This document shows, piece by piece, positions 341 to 25,656 of a DNA stretch of 64,000 nt. Each line of letters begins with the position of its first letter. Positions within the stretch are counted from its first letter, which is position 1. The position numbers and the translations under genes are program-made. The notes below the pieces were generated by a model, which was given only the letters and a program-made list of their open reading frames with translations, had not been told where the DNA came from and did not search any database. Source of the DNA: Lota lota (Eukaryota; Chordata; Actinopteri; Gadiformes; Lotidae); contig JACYXH010000363.1 in NCBI GenBank assembly GCA_026745465.1, positions 1,573,501-1,637,500 on the forward strand, given 5' to 3'.

Positions 341-1368
341 GGCTGTTTTTTTGAGGATGGGAAGACTCCACAAGATAAGTGAGTTGACTGACAACGCAGG
401 TCAAAAGACTCACGTGTGAAGGAAACATGAGTACTAAAAATATGTAGGAATTCATTGGATTTGAAAGAATGCAATACACAATCATATCGTTTAGACAGGG
501 TTTAGGAAGATGAATATAATGGGATATTGACCTGGTCGTTACTTACAGGTAATATGAGTAGGAATAAGCATGTCTTCTGAGGCGTCGGTGCGTTGGTGAA
601 AAAAAACAAACGGTTGGAAACGCCAAAGAGAAAGATAAAACACAGCGGATTAGTAGACGTTCACACTAGATACTGTTCTCTGTGCTTCCTCAGCATCTAT
701 TTATTATAGACCGCTCAATATGGTCGTAATGCATAGTATCAATAATGTCTACCTAAAATGTCTCTAATGTTTTACATGTATTTTAGGAATTGACAATGCA
801 ATCTGTCTTGCAAAACTGTTGTCTTGCTGTCTGAATCCCTTGCTTTATACCTGTCTGCCTGCCTGTCTGTGTGTCTGCCCCTCTGTGCTGTGTCTCCTAC
901 TCCTACTCCTACTAGTGGGTCTCTGTTTTCTGCTAATCCCGGCTATCTGTCTGTATTTTATCAGAATGTGCCTTAGAATAGGGTCGATTGAGGGACACCA
1001 ATCAGGTCCTTTTATTCATAGTGAACTACCAATTAATAGAAGCTGATACACTGGGGGCAGGAGCTAGCTGTCTCTCTGAATTACTAACAATAATCATAAT
1101 AATAATAATAATAAAGACAATAATAAAATGGCCTGTTTGTTATTATAAAATACAATCACACACATCTGACTCCTGTATCACAGAGACAGAGAGAGACAGA
1201 GAGAAACAGAGAGACAGAGAAATAGAGAGGATGGAGAGACTTAATGATGGAGGGAGGTAAAATAAGGGAGGAAGAAATGATGGAGGGAGAGAAAGAAATG
1301 GGAGATGACTGTAAGCATGTGTGTGTGTGTGTGTGTGGGGGGGGGGGTGTATACAAACGGGAATAGTG

Positions 1369-5861: not shown

Positions 5862-6773
5862 CGAGGGAGCCATGTGAACTCTATAGACCAGAGAACCATG
5901 TGGACTCTACAGACCAGAGAACCATGTGGACTCTAAAGACCAGAGAACCTACAAACCAGAGCACCATGTAGACTGGATTACCATGTGGATTATACAGACC
6001 AGAGAACCATGTGGACTCTACAGACCAGAGAACCATGTGGACTCTACAGACCAGAGAACCTACAAACCAGAGAACCATGTAGACTGGATTACCATGTGGA
6101 TTATACAGACCAGAGAACCATGTGGACTCTAGAGACCAGAGAACCATGTGGACTCTACAGACCAGAGAACCTACAAACCAGAGAACCATGTAGACTGGAT
6201 TACCATGTGGATTATACAGACCAGAGAACCATGTGGACTCTACAGACCAGAGAACCTACAAACCAGAGAACCATGTAGACTGGATTACCATGTGGATTAT
6301 ACAGACCAGAGAACCATGTGGACTCTACAGACCAGAGAACTATGTGGATTCTACAGACCAGAGCTCAATGTGGACTCTAGAGACCAGAGCACCATGTGGA
6401 CTCTACAGACCAGAGAACCTACAAACCAGAGAATCATGTAGACTAGATTACCATGTGGCTTATACAGACCAGAGAACCATGTGGACTCTACAGACCAGAG
6501 AACCATGTGGATTCTACAGACCAGAGCACAATGTGGCTTATACAGACCAGAGAACCATGTGAACTCTACAGACCAGAGAACCATGTGGACTATACAGACC
6601 AGAGCACCAAGCGGACTCTACAGACCAGAGAACTGTGTGGACTCAGAAGACCAGAGAAAGCGAGAACCATGCAGACTCTACAGCCCAGAGAAGAAGAGAA
6701 CCGTGTGGACTCTTCAGACCAGAGAAGAGAATCGTGTGGAGTCTACAACCCAGAGAAGTAGAGAACCGTGTGG
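5862..6773. repeat. 26-bp minisatellite with higher-order units
   Basis: About 35 copies of a 26-bp unit reading approximately ACCAGAGAACCATGTGGACT-CTACAG. Variant units carry 'CCTACAAACC' and 'GACTGGATTACC'. The CCTACAAACC marker recurs at about 5947, 6058, 6169, 6254 and 6417, giving spacings of 111, 111, 85 and 163. Since 26 is not a multiple of 3, the same peptides appear in every frame; these are not genes. Units decay toward 6660-6773. Confidence 0.95.
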
Positions 6774-7302
6774 TACTCCTCGGTGGAGAAGAAGTTCACT
6801 GTTGAACTAATCCTGACCTGCAGAGTCCTGCGGGGACTAGCTGCCAAGGACATTAAGGAACTTGAAGCACGCAGGATTACAACAGGAAATACTTTGGCAA
6901 ATGTTTAGCCAATAGAAACGTCTGTGCAAACAAGTGACTTAACGTTGTCAAAACCACCCTTCATCCACATGTCCATCTGGACGGCCCTGGTTGTGTGTGT
7001 GTGTGTTCTGTGTGTGTGTGTGTGTTGTGTGTGTGTGTCTCTCTCTCTCTCTCTCTCTCTCTCTAAATGTGAATACTCTCCTCTGTTGCCAATGTCAATA
7101 TTGGTTTTAAATACCTAGAGAGCATGAACACAGACAACCACACACACACACACAGACACAAAGCACTCACTCACGCACACACACAGTGTGTGCCAGTGAA
7201 GATAAGGCTATCCACCATAAAGCAAGTGATCTGGCACTAACAGTGATAACACAATTTATGGCCATTGTCTCACAAAATACAATAACTCTCTCACAGATAC
7301 AG

Positions 7303-10905: not shown

Positions 10906-11601
10906 ATGAACGTAATAGTAAACAGTTAACATTGATGTGCGATGGCGGTTGTCGCTAATGGCTAACGGGGGTCCTGGAACCTGATTGGTATTCAGTAGGG
11001 ACACGGCATGGACCCCGGACCGAACGCACGAGAGAGGAGCTCAACAATATCTCCTAATCCTGAGTCTCCTTCTGCCTCACCGTCACTACGGCAAACTGGG
11101 ATGACGGGCGCGAGGGTAATGAGGAGTGGCGGGAGCCCTCAAGGACGGTGCTAACGGGCATGGACCCCAGGGTTTACGATGGCATACAATGAAGCGCTCA
11201 CACAGAATGACAAGCAGCCGCTCGGAGTGGACGGACCAAACCACAGCTGCAGTTTGACGAGGGGGCAGAGCTTCATTTTGAGTGGCGAGATTCATTTTCC
11301 TAGCTATCCAATTACATTTGAGTTGTTTGAATCCTGTTGTTAATAATCCACCGGCCCAGAGGATAAATGATGCCCATATGCTTTATTAAATCATATATAA
11401 ATATACAAATCTCTTTGCAGTTTTTGTTTTGAAAACTGTTTTCAATGTTAATTGTTGTTATGCTGCACAAATTTCTATGAAGGAAATGCTGAAAAAAAAT
11501 CTCATCTAATATTGATTTACAATAGCTGGTATGGTATTTCACTACAGCTACGACTTCAACATAATGCCTAAAGTACTAAAAAATATCTGATTAGCATACA
11601 G

Positions 11602-11635
<34 letters not shown>

Positions 11636-11871
11636 TTGTGTGTTTAATGGTGGTAAATAGATGGCTAAGAGATGAATAATAAACAAAAAAAAATCGAATG
11701 GCAAACGATACGGTAAACCAGTAGTGATTCATGAAGCAAAATGATGAGAATGGAACGAGGCTAGAAGTGTGATTAGGTGAAGAGAGATGTAGAGAGACAG
11801 AGAAAGAGAGAGCGAGCAGGGATCAAGGTAAGCCAGTGTGCATTTTACCTGAATCACCTGGGCCTCTACTG

Positions 11872-11901
11872 TAATATAGTTTGGCCACCCAAACTATATT
11901 A
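11872..11901. repeat. perfect 13-bp inverted repeat, 4-nt loop
   Basis: TAATATAGTTTGG and CCAAACTATATTA flank CCAC. Weaker pairing (ACTG with CAGT) continues outside after a 3-nt bulge. Confidence 0.9.
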
Positions 11902-12043
11902 AAACAGTATTTTTAACGATTGCTGTGTTGCCTTAACTAATACATTTTAACAGAAATATATTTTCATTTCCATGTGTGCAATATAATGCATTTTCTCTAA
12001 ACAATGACATGCGATTCCTTTTAAGGTTGCACATTTGTCTTTC

Positions 12044-12044
12044 C

Positions 12045-12089
<45 letters not shown>
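12044..12089. repeat. (CTGT)n tetranucleotide microsatellite
   Basis: About eleven perfect tetramers, located 170 bp from the ptprt transmembrane exon on its donor side. Confidence 0.97.
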
Positions 12090-12261
12090 TCCTGCCTGTG
12101 TGATAGTGTGAAAGGTCGTGGTGAGGTAATGGTTTGGTCAGGATGAGGTAATAATTTGGTCATGTTAAGGTTAGAGTGAGGTCATGGCGTAGTCATATTA
12201 AGGTCAAATTAAGGTCATGTTTAGGTCTCAATAGGGTGGTGAGGTCATAATGAGGTCATAC

Positions 12262-12397
12262 CTGCGTTTGAAGGTGAGCAACAGTCCCAGCAGGATGATG
12301 ATGAACATGAGGACTCCAGCGATGACGCCCGCCATCTTCACCGTGCTGTCCACCTGCTTCTCTGGCTCCATCGCATCAGAGTCCTGGGTGGAGGCGC
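12262..12397 (-). CDS. ptprt: ptprt transmembrane exon
   Basis: 136 nt, phase 1 to phase 2, acceptor TATAG, donor GTATGA. It encodes the extracellular stalk [18 protein letters not shown], then [10 protein letters not shown] and a hydrophobic helix of about 21 residues (roughly AGVIAG to LLLTF), followed by the stop-transfer bases FKRR. The wording [21 protein letters not shown] and MFIIILLG is distinctive of PTPRT; PTPRM and PTPRK read differently in this helix. In the pre-mRNA a (UG)n tract of about 28 repeats touches the acceptor with no separate U-rich tract. The length is not a multiple of three, so skipping would frameshift the product before the membrane. The next (juxtamembrane) exon was not found in 1-12261. 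Confidence 0.97.
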
Positions 12398-12398
12398 C

Positions 12399-12401
<3 letters not shown>

Positions 12402-12458
<57 letters not shown>
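12402..12458. repeat. (CA)n tract abutting the transmembrane-exon acceptor
   Basis: About 28 CA repeats on the plus strand, read as (UG)28 in the ptprt pre-mRNA. Only TATAG separates the repeat from the first exon base, so the repeat occupies the place of the polypyrimidine tract. More CA/GT blocks continue to 12585. Confidence 0.97.
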
Positions 12459-12463
<5 letters not shown>

Positions 12464-12545
12464 ACACACACAGGTACAAACACCACACACACAGAGGTAC
12501 AAAAGCACAAACACACACAGGTACATACACACACAGTTACAAACA

Positions 12546-12587
<42 letters not shown>

Positions 12588-14599
12588 AAAGATCATAAAG
12601 AGGAGCATGGAGATATTACCCATGGGAAGTCTTCTCAGACACAGGGACACGCACACATGCACATGTACTCACGCACATACACACAGTGAAAGTTGATGTT
12701 TGAACATACACGTCATACCGTAGAGGATAACATAAAGACATATGTCCTTGAGGATCCCAAGGTGAACAATACACACACAGGAACGCACACAACAAAACAC
12801 ACACACACACATCAACACACACAGAAGGCAACAGGGAGGGTAAGCCACAAGCACTACTTGACAATGCCGTGTCGTTTTCCGAGAACTTCTGCGAGATACA
12901 CCAGCAGATTGATTCAATTGGATGGTTTGTGAAAGACCCATCAGACACACATAGACACAAGCATAAACCCACATCTACACACAATAATCAACAAACAATA
13001 TGAATCATCTTCACTTAAAATGAGCCGTGGTCACAATGTGGAAAAAAATATATATTCCAGTCTCCAGTCTATTAATTTGACAGCCAGGATTAATGAAGAC
13101 ATACATTTTAATCAATGTCTTGTTTGCCAAGTCATTTGTAATTAAATAATGATATTGTGAATAGTGTCTCTAAATGGATAAAAAATGAAGTAAAGTGAGG
13201 GACCAGGTATTGAGTCGTTTCTCGCTGAGAAATGCATACGAAACACAAACACAAACACACACACACACACACACACTCTCTGGGGTAAAACCTTGCAACA
13301 CACACACACACACTGCTTGACATTGTAAACACATACCGCTAAACATAATGGACATAAACAAACGTTAATAAAAAGGACACATTTTTATTTTCCCGTTGCA
13401 AGGTTTTTCCATCATATGGATGATTCGTTGGCCATGACACACCCACAATATCCACACATCAAGCGTTAATATATATACCCTCGATACCCACACATTAACA
13501 CAACACACCCTCTATGCGTCAAACATGAGCACGATCGATTCTTAACACCTGAAAACCCATACAGTATATGACGATGCAAACCCCAACTTAACGTGATGAG
13601 AAACCCACGTGTTAGGGTCGGAAAAGGATGCATATGGAACAGGAAGCTGGATGTGTGTGGGTGTGTGTGTGTGTGTGTCTGTGTGTGTGTGTGTGTGTGG
13701 GGAGGGGGGGGGGGAGGTCGGGGGGGTGGGGGGAGGGGGTAATTTAGTGATAGAAGAGCAAAAAAAGCTAAATCTAGAACAACTGCAGGTGAACATGCAC
13801 AGGGTAAGTGGACCCACACTACAGTCACAGTATGTTCAGGGAATGTAATGAAAGGAAGGGAGGGGGGAGGACGCGAGGGAGAGATAAGGGGAAGGTTGGA
13901 GAGGAGAGGAGAGAAATAAGGGGGTGTGGGAGAAGAGCATCGTGCAGTCTGCTTGCAGTTCAAACTGTTCATATTGAGAACCAATCGGAAACATCCTCTT
14001 CCACTGAGGGAAATTAAAAAGGGTTTCCTGAGCTTGTGTTGCTATACCCTTGCAGAGACGCTGAACCACAGACCAGACAATAGACTGCTCCGTTGTCCCG
14101 TTTCTTCCCACAGCAACCCCAGAGCTGAACAAAGTGTGTTTGGCTGTCTGCAATTTTTACTCCAGGATTCCGGAACTCTGCAACCATTGTTTTCCTTTTT
14201 AAAGAAGACCAAGATGAACAGCCTCTTCTTCAAAAAAGGAGTCTGCATCTGCCTGCACCCACACACAGCCAGCGAACCGAGGATATATCAAACACGCTAC
14301 ATCATTAAACAGAGCTGGAGGTCAGGGGTCAACCATCACATACATCCCAGCCATCCCTTGCCGTGTGTCCCCTTAGGGCATAGGGAGAGGTCAGCTGATC
14401 AAAACAAACACAGCTTTATTGTTCTGGCGTACCTCCCCGACAGGAAGTTACTCTCGGATCGGAGAGAAGAGAAGGTGGAAGGTCAGACATCCACGTTCAG
14501 GTGTTAAATACACTGTGTCAATGAGAGCGAGAGAGAGAGAGGGAAAGACAGAGATAATGAGAGGATAGAGCCGATACAGATAGAGACCAGAATAATGAA

Positions 14600-19929: not shown

Positions 19930-20738
19930 TTTGCGCATGTGTGATGTGTGTGTGTGTGTGTGTGTGGTCCTGGCATTGTCGCTGGATTTATATATTTTTA
20001 ACTTTCACTTATCCTTGCTGTCTGGGATTTTACTTTTCTCTATCACTCCCCCTCCTTCTCTTCCTCTATCTACCTCTCTCCATCTCATTCTCTCTATTCT
20101 TTTCTATATTATTGGGTCTCTACCTAATGTATGCCTCTATATGTCTCTCCTGCTCTGTTTCTCTCTCTGTATGCTTGGGTCTCTCTACCTGGCTGTGTCG
20201 CTCTCTCTCTCTCTTAACCCCAGATTCTGAACAAGCCTGGTCTCCAAGCAATGTAATCACTGCTCTAGACGTGTTGTCCTTAAAGTGTCACATTTCTGTA
20301 TTCACCGGAGCACCTCTTTCTTCTCAGCCTCTATTATTTATTACAATTCTTTATTTCACCGGCCGATCTGACTCAATCTTTTGCAAATCCGTGAGTGAGT
20401 GATCAAACAGCAACCAGACAAGCTTTTCAATGACAGGTTTCATCCTTACAGAGAAAGCAAGGTCTTTGTGTGTTTGTCTGTGTGTGTGAATGTGTGTGTT
20501 GTCACGCAGTGTTGTCATACAGTGACACAAGTACACAATCACACACACACACATTTAAACCCACACACATGCGCATACAGACACGCACACACACACACAC
20601 ACACACACAAACCCACACACATGCCCATACACACATGCACACACACACACATAAACACACACACACACACACACACACACAAAACACACAGTGCACACAT
20701 TGCATCACTCTTGCAGGAGCCACCTCAGCAGTGGAACA

Positions 20739-21479
20739 GGTATGCTAGAACAGGACGTATGCTAGAGCATGAGGTATGCTAGAGCAAATCCTCTAGAACA
20801 GGTATGCTAGAACAGAAAATATGCTAGAACATGAGGTATGCTAGAAGAGGTCCTCTAAAACAGGTATGCTAGAACAGGAAGTATGCTAGAACATGAGGTA
20901 TGCTAGAATAGGTCCTATAGAACAGGTATGCTAGAACAGGAAGTATGCTAGAACATGAGGTACGCTAGAAGAGGTCCTCTAGAACAGGTATGCTAGAACA
21001 GAAGTATGCTAGACCATGACATATGCTAGAAAAGGTCCTCTAGAACAGGTATGCTAGAACAGAAAGTACGCTAGAACATGAGGTACGCTAGAACAGGTGC
21101 TCTAGAACAGGTATGCTAGAACAGGAAGTACGCTAGAACATGAGGTACGCTAGAACAGGTGCTCTAGAACAGGTATGCTAGAACATGAGGTATGCTAGAA
21201 CAGGTCCTCTAGAACAGGTACGCTAGAACAGGTCCTCTAGAACAGGTATGCTAGAACAGAAAGTACGCTAGAACATGAGGTACGCTAGAACAGGTGCTCT
21301 AGAACAGGTATGCTAGAACAGAAAGTACGCTAGAACATGAGGTACGCTAGAAAGGTATGCTAGAACAGGAAGTACGCTAGAAGTACGTGCTCTAGATCAG
21401 GACATATGCTAGAACATGATATATATGCTAGAACAGGTGCTCTAGATCAGGTATGCTAGAACTGGTAAATGATCTAGAG
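20739..21479. repeat. minisatellite, ~62-bp higher-order unit of 13-17-bp subunits
   Basis: Subunits GGTATGCTAGAACAG, GAAGTATGCTAGAACAT, GAGGTACGCTAGAACAG and GTCCTCTAGAACA cycle about eleven times. Most cycles carry one TCTAGA palindrome. The array is interrupted by a hAT element at 21480 and resumes briefly as TCTAGAACAGGTATGTTAG after 22304. Confidence 0.95.
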
Positions 21480-21997
21480 CAGTGGTTCTTAACCTCTTTG
21501 GAGGTACTGAACCCCGCAAGTTTCATACGCGCATTCACTGAACCCTTCGTAATTGGAAAAATAAAGTAAGGTATTTGGGATAACTTATTTTCAGCAGCTT
21601 TTCCCAGCATGATATTCGCGATCTTCAACAAAGCTGGTTTTACGAGTGTTTCACCAATGGTGTGCGGTTTGCCCTGCTTTGCTATAAGGTAAGCAACTTC
21701 GTACGATGCTGTGAGGATCAGTTTGTCGATGGGTACAAAGCTAAGAACAGGCAGAGTAGCCTTTTCATCAAATCTAAATCTCTTCACCTTGAATTCAGTG
21801 AGCTTAATGTTCTTGTATTTCCCATCTCCATGCAACTTATGGAAGTGTTCCCTTAGTTTTGCCGGTGCTAGACTACAATTTCTCAACTTGGCACTGCAAA
21901 TCATGCATTGAGGACGCTGACTCCCATCACGTTCCGTTATACATGTGAATCCATATTGTACGTATTTGTCCGACCACTTTCCTTTTTTGCTCGACAT
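21428..21997 (-). pseudogene. truncated hAT transposase (BED zinc finger N-terminus)
   Basis: The frame starts with ATG at 21997 (MSSKKGKWSDKYVQYGF). A BED-type finger is visible as C31-x2-C34-x16-H51-x4-H56. The segment around residues 97-143 (ASYEVAYLIAKQGKPHT, then ETLVKPALLKIA and GKAAENKLSQIP) matches the N-terminal region of ZBED5/FAM200-like hAT transposases as I know the family. After about residue 143 (near 21568) the similarity stops, and the frame reads through the left TIR and out into the minisatellite. The RNase-H-like catalytic domain and dimerisation region are missing, so it cannot be a working transposase. The retained part has no stop or frameshift. Confidence 0.85.
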
Positions 21998-22296
21998 AGT
22001 TAGTATGAAGGGATTAAAATATTAAGAAGGAAATCACAAATGAAGTGCAATCACGACAGTCACAAGTCGACTACTGAGCGCACCAAGTTGCCTGTAGCAC
22101 AGATATTAAGGCCAAACGATGTGGCGTGATCAGCTGCAGTCAATGATGGCCAAGCGGAGCGTGACGTCACGAAGTATACGAGTGGGGTGAACGGAACGGA
22201 TACACACACAGTGTGTGTGTCTTGACCTCCGCCGAACCCCTGAGGCTGACTCACCGAATCCCTGGGGTTCGATCGAACCCAGGTTAAGAACCACTG
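21480..22296 (-). mobile_element. hAT-Charlie-type DNA transposon, internally deleted
   Basis: The 817-bp element has perfect 16-bp terminal inverted repeats, CAGTGGTTCTTAACCT at the left end and its complement at the right end, matching the classic Charlie-type CAGTGGTTCT terminus. It is flanked by 8-bp target duplications ATCTAGAG (21472-21479) and ATTTAGAG (22297-22304), 7/8 identical and fitting the nTCTAGAn preference of this group. The 8-bp TSD, TIR and internal BED-finger ORF on the minus strand all agree. At 817 bp it is much shorter than an autonomous element and lacks the catalytic domain. Confidence 0.95.

Positions 22297-23524: not shown

Positions 23525-23571
<47 letters not shown>
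23525..23571. repeat. (GT)n microsatellite
   Basis: About 23 repeats. Confidence 0.97.
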
Positions 23572-25619: not shown

Positions 25620-25656
25620 CTTTGGTAGCAAGGCGGACACAGTTGATCTTAGTTTC
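25620..25656 (-). CDS. ptprt: ptprt 37-nt linker exon
   Basis: A 37-nt exon, phase 0 to phase 1, lying alone between two long introns, with acceptor CTACAG and donor GTATGT. It encodes ETKINCVRLATK plus the first base of a glycine codon, which is the expected size and content of the short exon that follows the fourth FN3 repeat in this family. The upstream exon ends ...SRANG, giving the conserved ANG-ETKINCV junction. The pre-mRNA upstream of the acceptor is a long interrupted (CU)n tract. Although tiny, its identity is secure because size, phase, splice signals and residues all match. Confidence 0.95.

Follow-up and report, generated by a model that had tools for sequence, protein, structure and literature searches.

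The ptprt transmembrane exon and its acceptor

The window analysed here (a 64,000-nucleotide stretch of a Lota lota contig, numbered from its first letter) carries on its minus strand the transmembrane (TM) exon of ptprt, which was placed by homology at 12262..12397 (136 nt, with AG at 12399-12398 and GT at 12261-12260). FN3 exons, the TM exon and phosphatase exons of this gene lie in order on one strand, as in a type IIB receptor tyrosine phosphatase; the FN3 exons match PTPRM structures, Pfam gives a PTPRU-type FN3 domain, and the phosphatase exons are ordered downstream. The gene is presumably PTPRT rather than PTPRM, PTPRK or PTPRU, a choice based on the human PTPRT sequence (including its NAYSYSYYL stretch), to which the TM exon is 80% identical. 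A DNA search of the genome (575 Mb, 867 contigs) with the TM exon returned a single match, the window itself (contig C363).

Two neighbouring exons were also placed by homology on the minus strand: a 37-nt exon upstream (ETKINCVRLATK-G; 25620..25656; donor GTATGTCC), the acceptor of which is a CU repeat, and a 30-nt microexon downstream, in the juxtamembrane region (RRHAYSYSYYL; 547..576; donor GTAAGT), and the junctions of the three are in frame. The microexon has the third weakest of the 47 acceptors sampled below (matrix from the local sample); its skipping would preserve the reading frame, which makes regulated skipping more plausible for it than for the TM exon. The gene, the exon, its repeat and the upstream exon at 25620-25656 had been named in a first-pass annotation of this DNA and are borne out by sequence and homology, with one correction: the range that it gave, 12262..12458, covers exon plus repeat.

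At the TM acceptor, the position of the polypyrimidine tract is occupied by a pure (UG)28.5 run of 57 nt (12402..12458, minus), which stops 4 nt short of the exon, in agreement with the five bases or fewer first described. The acceptor reads UGUGUAUAG up to the junction and GCGCC beyond it; after the repeat there is AUAG only, with no U tract between repeat and AG. Further UG runs follow upstream on the same strand, one of 13 nt a single base apart from the first (12460..12472) and one of 37 nt located 151 nt upstream of the exon (12549..12585). The longest pyrimidine run between -40 and -4 is one base, the lowest value among the 47 acceptors and tied with that of the exon encoding the catalytic motif (the CSAG exon). 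The earlier statement that no other U/C-rich stretch is present holds for the repeat itself and fails for the AG-free zone as a whole: this zone extends for 231 nt upstream of the acceptor AG (12400..12630, minus), and a sequence scan found within it a pyrimidine-rich 20-mer (17/20) from -208 (12586..12605, minus) as well as CTTTT and CCTCT between -108 and -96. The overall strength of the acceptor is mid-range, ranking 29th of 47 from the weakest with the local matrix and 20th of 47 with a matrix from the non-UG acceptors.

Local structure at the acceptor was rejected as a candidate feature, because the fold of the TM exon plus upstream tract is no more stable than that of shuffled sequence (z +1.75; 97/100 shuffles at least as stable), and an Rfam search of 11500-13500 gave no match at the gathering threshold. 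The ptprt TM acceptor was not named in the titles and abstract openings covered by a literature search. Repeats of other kinds are also present around the exon: minisatellites with units of 26 and 62 bp lie in the introns on either side (5870-6778 and 20734-21467, respectively), and the intron upstream of the TM exon (hereafter the TM intron) holds a 197-codon open frame at about 21431-22021 (minus; it includes MSSKKGKWSDKYVQYGFTC), which resembles a ZBED/hAT-derived piece; 189 amino acids of this frame had no match in Pfam.

Simple repeats at splice sites of the phosphatase family

We assessed how often such repeats adjoin splice sites in 47 acceptors of the same genome, comprising 18 from ptprt and 29 from other phosphatase-domain exons at 30 loci, the criterion being a pure run of 12 nt or longer no more than 100 nt from the splice site. 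Exon ends were set manually, guided by homology and reading frame, by a placer who knew the hypothesis. Among acceptors, one was excluded (L025, the boundary not being visible near the match); among donors, L038, L040, L042, L043 and L045 (exon extending beyond the match), L047 (marker not unique) and the last ptprt exon were excluded, and a partial duplicate of the EEQ exon was left out of the counts. That duplicate repeats the final 20 codons of the EEQYVF exon (YNIKGLTPQTNSNQVKDEFQ; L005:262-321, minus), with its own GTACACAC donor and an AC-rich, poor acceptor side; it is 75% identical to the human stretch.

By this criterion, UG runs were found at 9/47 acceptors and AC runs at none, and AC runs at 8/41 donors and UG runs at none, in what is a single gene family, whose paralogues are not independent. 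The split between the two kinds of site was significant at 12 nt (Fisher P = 4 × 10−5), 16 nt (P = 0.008) and 20 nt (P = 0.029), among run lengths of 8, 10, 12, 16 and 20 nt and windows of 50-200 nt that were tried. A threshold of 8 nt gave 10 UG and 1 AC at acceptors and 0 UG and 10 AC at donors; a 200-nt window gave 9 UG and 1 AC at acceptors and 1 UG and 9 AC at donors. The nine UG acceptors are those of the TM exon (57 nt), the KLAKK (14 nt), EALP (17 nt), CSAG (46 nt) and EEQ (13 nt) exons, and L027 (15 nt), L048 (13 nt), L049 (62 nt) and L050 (51 nt), so a UG acceptor was rejected as a feature unique to the TM exon. In the CSAG exon of ptprt (catalytic motif CSAGAGRTG), the 46-nt run ends 15 nt upstream of the exon (L005:3274 and upstream; G000:C363:1536774, minus), and the pyrimidine run between -40 and -4 never exceeds 1 base, as at the TM exon. 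Because UG runs recur in this way, including at the catalytic-motif exon, the TM acceptor is best seen as one of a class. The acceptor closest in layout to that of CFTR exon 9 is at L050 (about 1400-1502), where a phosphatase exon is preceded by (UG)n, then U6 and AG, and followed by AC after its donor.

The ptprt locus is itself rich in repeats. Across the 264-kb ptprt stretch, sense UG runs occur in 5.8% of 100-nt windows at a length of at least 12 nt and in 3.7% at a length of at least 20 nt, and AC runs of at least 12 nt in 6.5%, so that a single UG acceptor is weak evidence and unremarkable alone. Against this background, drawn from the ptprt stretch only, the family-wide counts were higher than expected for UG at acceptors (binomial P = 0.0014) and for AC at donors (P = 0.0044). 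UG acceptors scored somewhat lower than the others (local splice-site matrix; Mann–Whitney P = 0.05), and being slightly weaker they could have reduced inclusion.

One account of these patterns invokes no special recognition: microsatellites would come to occupy whichever splice-site tracts tolerate them, UG at acceptors (where it brings no AG and supplies U) and AC at donors (where it creates no GU). Filtering of this kind would also yield an orientation bias, and the CU runs of at least 12 nt at six other acceptors (6/47) are consistent with it. We regard a neutral origin as an appreciable possibility, though below even odds; tolerance alone does not, however, predict the excess of either repeat over the local background.

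Branch point and intron ends

Searching for an A upstream of the TM acceptor's own AUAG, we found none between -5 and -77 and the nearest at -78. Together with the lack of any other AG for 231 nt, this suggests a distant branch point for the TM exon. The best candidate, a weak prediction made with a consensus matrix, is UGUAAC at 12536..12541 (minus), with its A at -140. For comparison, human branch points are reported to lie 29.3 ± 11.9 nt from the acceptor (PMC9508853). Exons activated by PUF60 are described as combining a long AG-free zone with a branch point far upstream (PMC6093180), with mean zones of about 55-60 nt in PUF60-activated and U2AF35-repressed human exons in that account; among the 47 local acceptors, five have an AG-free zone of at least 231 nt. 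Human GANAB exon 6 has its branch points at -74 and -80, just upstream of UG-rich and UC-rich segments, and deletion of the UG-rich segment is reported to abolish the natural 3' splice site (PMC6093180); UG-rich tracts are also described before PUF60-activated mutually exclusive exons (PMC7969005). The TM exon shares with PUF60-activated exons such as GANAB exon 6 a long AG-free zone, the absence of an A near the acceptor and a UG tract after the likely branch point. It differs from them in that its tract is a pure dinucleotide repeat, where theirs is a UG-rich segment, and in its longer zone (231 nt).

We favour, as the better than even reading of these sequence features, a fish-type simple-repeat acceptor with a distant branch point and a normally included TM exon. 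The (UG)28.5 run would close a 231-nt AG-free linker, the start of which would be a branch point 78 nt or more upstream (140 nt for the best candidate). The U2 snRNP may be placed there by PUF60 or other factors that bind U or UG, instead of by U2AF bound to a classical pyrimidine tract, and/or through base pairing between the UG at the 3' end and AC lying closer to the donor of that intron; the spliceosome would then use the first AG downstream of the branch point, and TDP-43 on the repeat may reduce inclusion of the exon somewhat. The branch point, the factors and the inclusion of the exon are what we infer here, and the most likely combination appears to be a branch point far upstream and an AG-free linker of UG, helped by PUF60-like factors or intramolecular pairing. 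Our confidence in this reading overlaps with that in its rivals, and the separate confidences do not sum to one.

The second of these routes has precedent in fish. Introns of fish and lamprey that carry (AC)m at their 5' end and (GU)n at their 3' end have been described (Lin et al. 2016, as cited in PMC12962679 and PMC7404189), the two ends being said there to bridge the intron and replace U2AF2, and in approximately 10% of zebrafish introns (GT)n before the 3' splice site is reported to pair with (AC)n following the 5' splice site, so that U2AF is not needed (PMC6093180). Both ends are mapped for 15 ptprt introns, counted as complete on the premise that no further exon lies between the mapped ones, and excluding the introns around two N stretches. 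In these, AC clusters lay 5' of UG clusters in 74/109 same-intron pairs (within-intron permutation P = 0.036). This polarity ranged in significance from P = 0.008 to 0.056 over four settings, with one above 0.05 (unclustered runs, 317/483, P = 0.008; at least 16 nt, 65/93, P = 0.027; at least 20 nt, 47/69, P = 0.056), and the first repeat cluster was AC in 12 of the 13 ptprt introns that have any cluster.

Applied strictly, bridging would have the (UG)28.5 run pair with AC near the upstream donor, joining the intron ends without U2AF2. The polarity over ptprt introns is in its favour, as is the fact that, of the repeat clusters in the TM intron, the first consists of AC, a 45-nt run (23526..23570, minus; the first AC run of at least 12 nt) with a computed duplex of -91 kcal/mol with the UG run at 12402-12458. 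This run, however, lies 2,049 nt from the donor, within the first 200 nt of the intron the longest AC run is 9 nt, and with 13 AC runs of at least 12 nt in the 13,222 nt of the intron some partner is expected by chance; AC runs of 18 and 20 nt located 1.26-1.28 kb before the acceptor, and another after the TM exon, would compete. The likeness to fish (AC)m-(GU)n introns thus consists of a UG tract that replaces the pyrimidine tract at the TM acceptor, the AC-5'/UG-3' polarity in ptprt introns and recurrence in the family, whereas the TM intron differs in being 13 kb long with AC 2 kb from the donor. With AC at that distance, the resemblance is limited to the acceptor and the overall polarity and does not extend to the donor side, which weakens the case for a strict end-to-end bridge in the TM intron; we judge such bridging unlikely here. 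Among the 15 introns, only that from CSAG to EEQ joins an AC-rich very donor with a UG acceptor of at least 12 nt, and the other AC donors of ptprt face CU or ordinary acceptors. The strongest AC donor follows the PQDGY exon, where GTAAGTAAAT is succeeded immediately by 59 nt of AC (L006:4344-4412, minus); the 8.5-kb intron that it opens ends in a CU-repeat acceptor, which is not complementary to AC.

As far as sequence can tell, the arrangement at the TM exon belongs on its acceptor side with fish splice sites of a type already described, and it recurs in the same gene and in its family. It looks like a routine fish-type site and not like evidence for a special skipping switch.

TDP-43, repeat folding and the outcome of skipping

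The first-pass annotation had likened the TM acceptor to that of CFTR exon 9, where TDP-43 binding promotes skipping in a length-dependent way. On such an account TDP-43 would coat the UG repeat and block U2AF or recognition of the branch point, with skipping in proportion to repeat length. As in CFTR exon 9, a UG repeat lies against the acceptor of a coding exon, and length polymorphism is plausible; that part of the analogy stands, and the U tract between repeat and AG, the other part of the CFTR arrangement, is absent. The TM acceptor further differs in its repeat number, which is roughly double, in its probably distant branch point, in having sister exons arranged alike and in lacking a clear exonic silencer. 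Binding as such would be expected: 24 GT repeats are reported to accommodate up to four TDP-43 RRM1-2 fragments (PMC8523171), compared with 28.5 repeats here, and the first TDP-43 on (GU)12 to bind with a KD of 5 pM or less (PMC12697283). TDP-43 bound close to splice sites is described as repressing them (PMC13343711), and the longest pyrimidine run of one base, lowest of the 47 acceptors together with the CSAG exon, also speaks for this account. Skipping of CFTR exon 9 is, however, reported to need both TDP-43 and an hnRNP A1 silencer within the exon (PMC12171016); by eye, UAGG spans the junction at the start of the TM exon and CAGG lies near +11, with no GGGGAAU-like element. A UG tract can also act with the opposite sign, being required for exon use in the case of GANAB, and UG runs stand at eight other sampled acceptors, including that of the catalytic-motif exon; on the assumption that these exons are included in the mRNA, a UG tract alone does not imply skipping. 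A general rule in this genome by which UG means skipping is thus implausible. TDP-43 should bind the 57 nt of UG very well, and in some tissue the TM exon may be skipped in a length-dependent manner, but as the main account of this acceptor a CFTR-like repression seems doubtful to us.

Were the TM exon skipped, the membrane helix would be lost and the frame shifted, an earlier claim for which the arithmetic is right (136 mod 3 = 1). The same claim predicted a truncated, secreted ectodomain, yet a simpler outcome is at hand: after the shift, the microexon and the KLAKK exon can be read for 62 codons (52 without the microexon) with no stop reached, and 10 mapped exons lie downstream of the KLAKK exon. 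By the usual rule, such a transcript is a target of nonsense-mediated decay. An open frame of 62 codons with 10 exons to follow makes mRNA decay likelier than a secreted product on the mapped exons, and weakens the case for a simple secreted ectodomain. The next exons of the human protein were not found in the 264 kb, with N stretches in the interval where they would lie.

A looped-out TM exon, with the upstream UG run pairing across it to an (AC)16 run 627 nt after the TM donor (11603..11634, minus) and to a (GACA)n tract about 172 nt after it (12044..12089, minus; partial UG pairing in the predicted fold), so that partners about 170-630 nt downstream sequester the exon into skipping or circular RNA, is very improbable: the minimum-energy fold of 11560-12640 does pair these repeats across the exon (a fold without a shuffle control at that length), but with 103 pure AC/TG runs of at least 12 nt in the 64 kb of the window such a partner is expected, and the exon with its upstream tract, as noted, folds no better than shuffles.

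Slimmer still is the chance that the (UG)28.5 run serves as a length-gated RNA switch. The pUG fold is reported to require at least 11.5-12 consecutive GU repeats (PMC12962679, PMC12276007), a requirement that the 28.5 repeats exceed; (GU)29 is described as forming a double left-handed pUG quadruplex in vitro (PMC12276007), and pUG folding and TDP-43 binding as mutually exclusive (PMC12697283). Like long pUG RNAs, the tract has room in its 57 nt and 28.5 repeats for two 12-repeat folds; unlike them, it is part of a ptprt transcript, where TDP-43 and complementary AC would compete with the putative fold. Conceivably, with at least 24 repeats, a double pUG quadruplex would compact the 78-140 nt between branch point and AG and permit inclusion, and TDP-43, binding only the unfolded repeat, would keep the linker long and favour skipping. 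If this were true, repeat length, potassium and TDP-43 would together determine how much ptprt is membrane-bound and how much is not, and the same length-gated switch would apply to the acceptors of CSAG, L049 and L050.

The family-wide counts advise caution against taking UG at an acceptor for a CFTR-like defect, as approximately one-fifth of the sampled phosphatase acceptors (9/47) have one, and one of these natural UG acceptors serves an exon indispensable to the enzyme. Together, they constitute a natural set of UG acceptors, some without A or AG for 80-230 nt, on which AC/UG bridging, PUF60 with a distant branch point, and pUG folding in opposition to TDP-43 may be weighed against one another.
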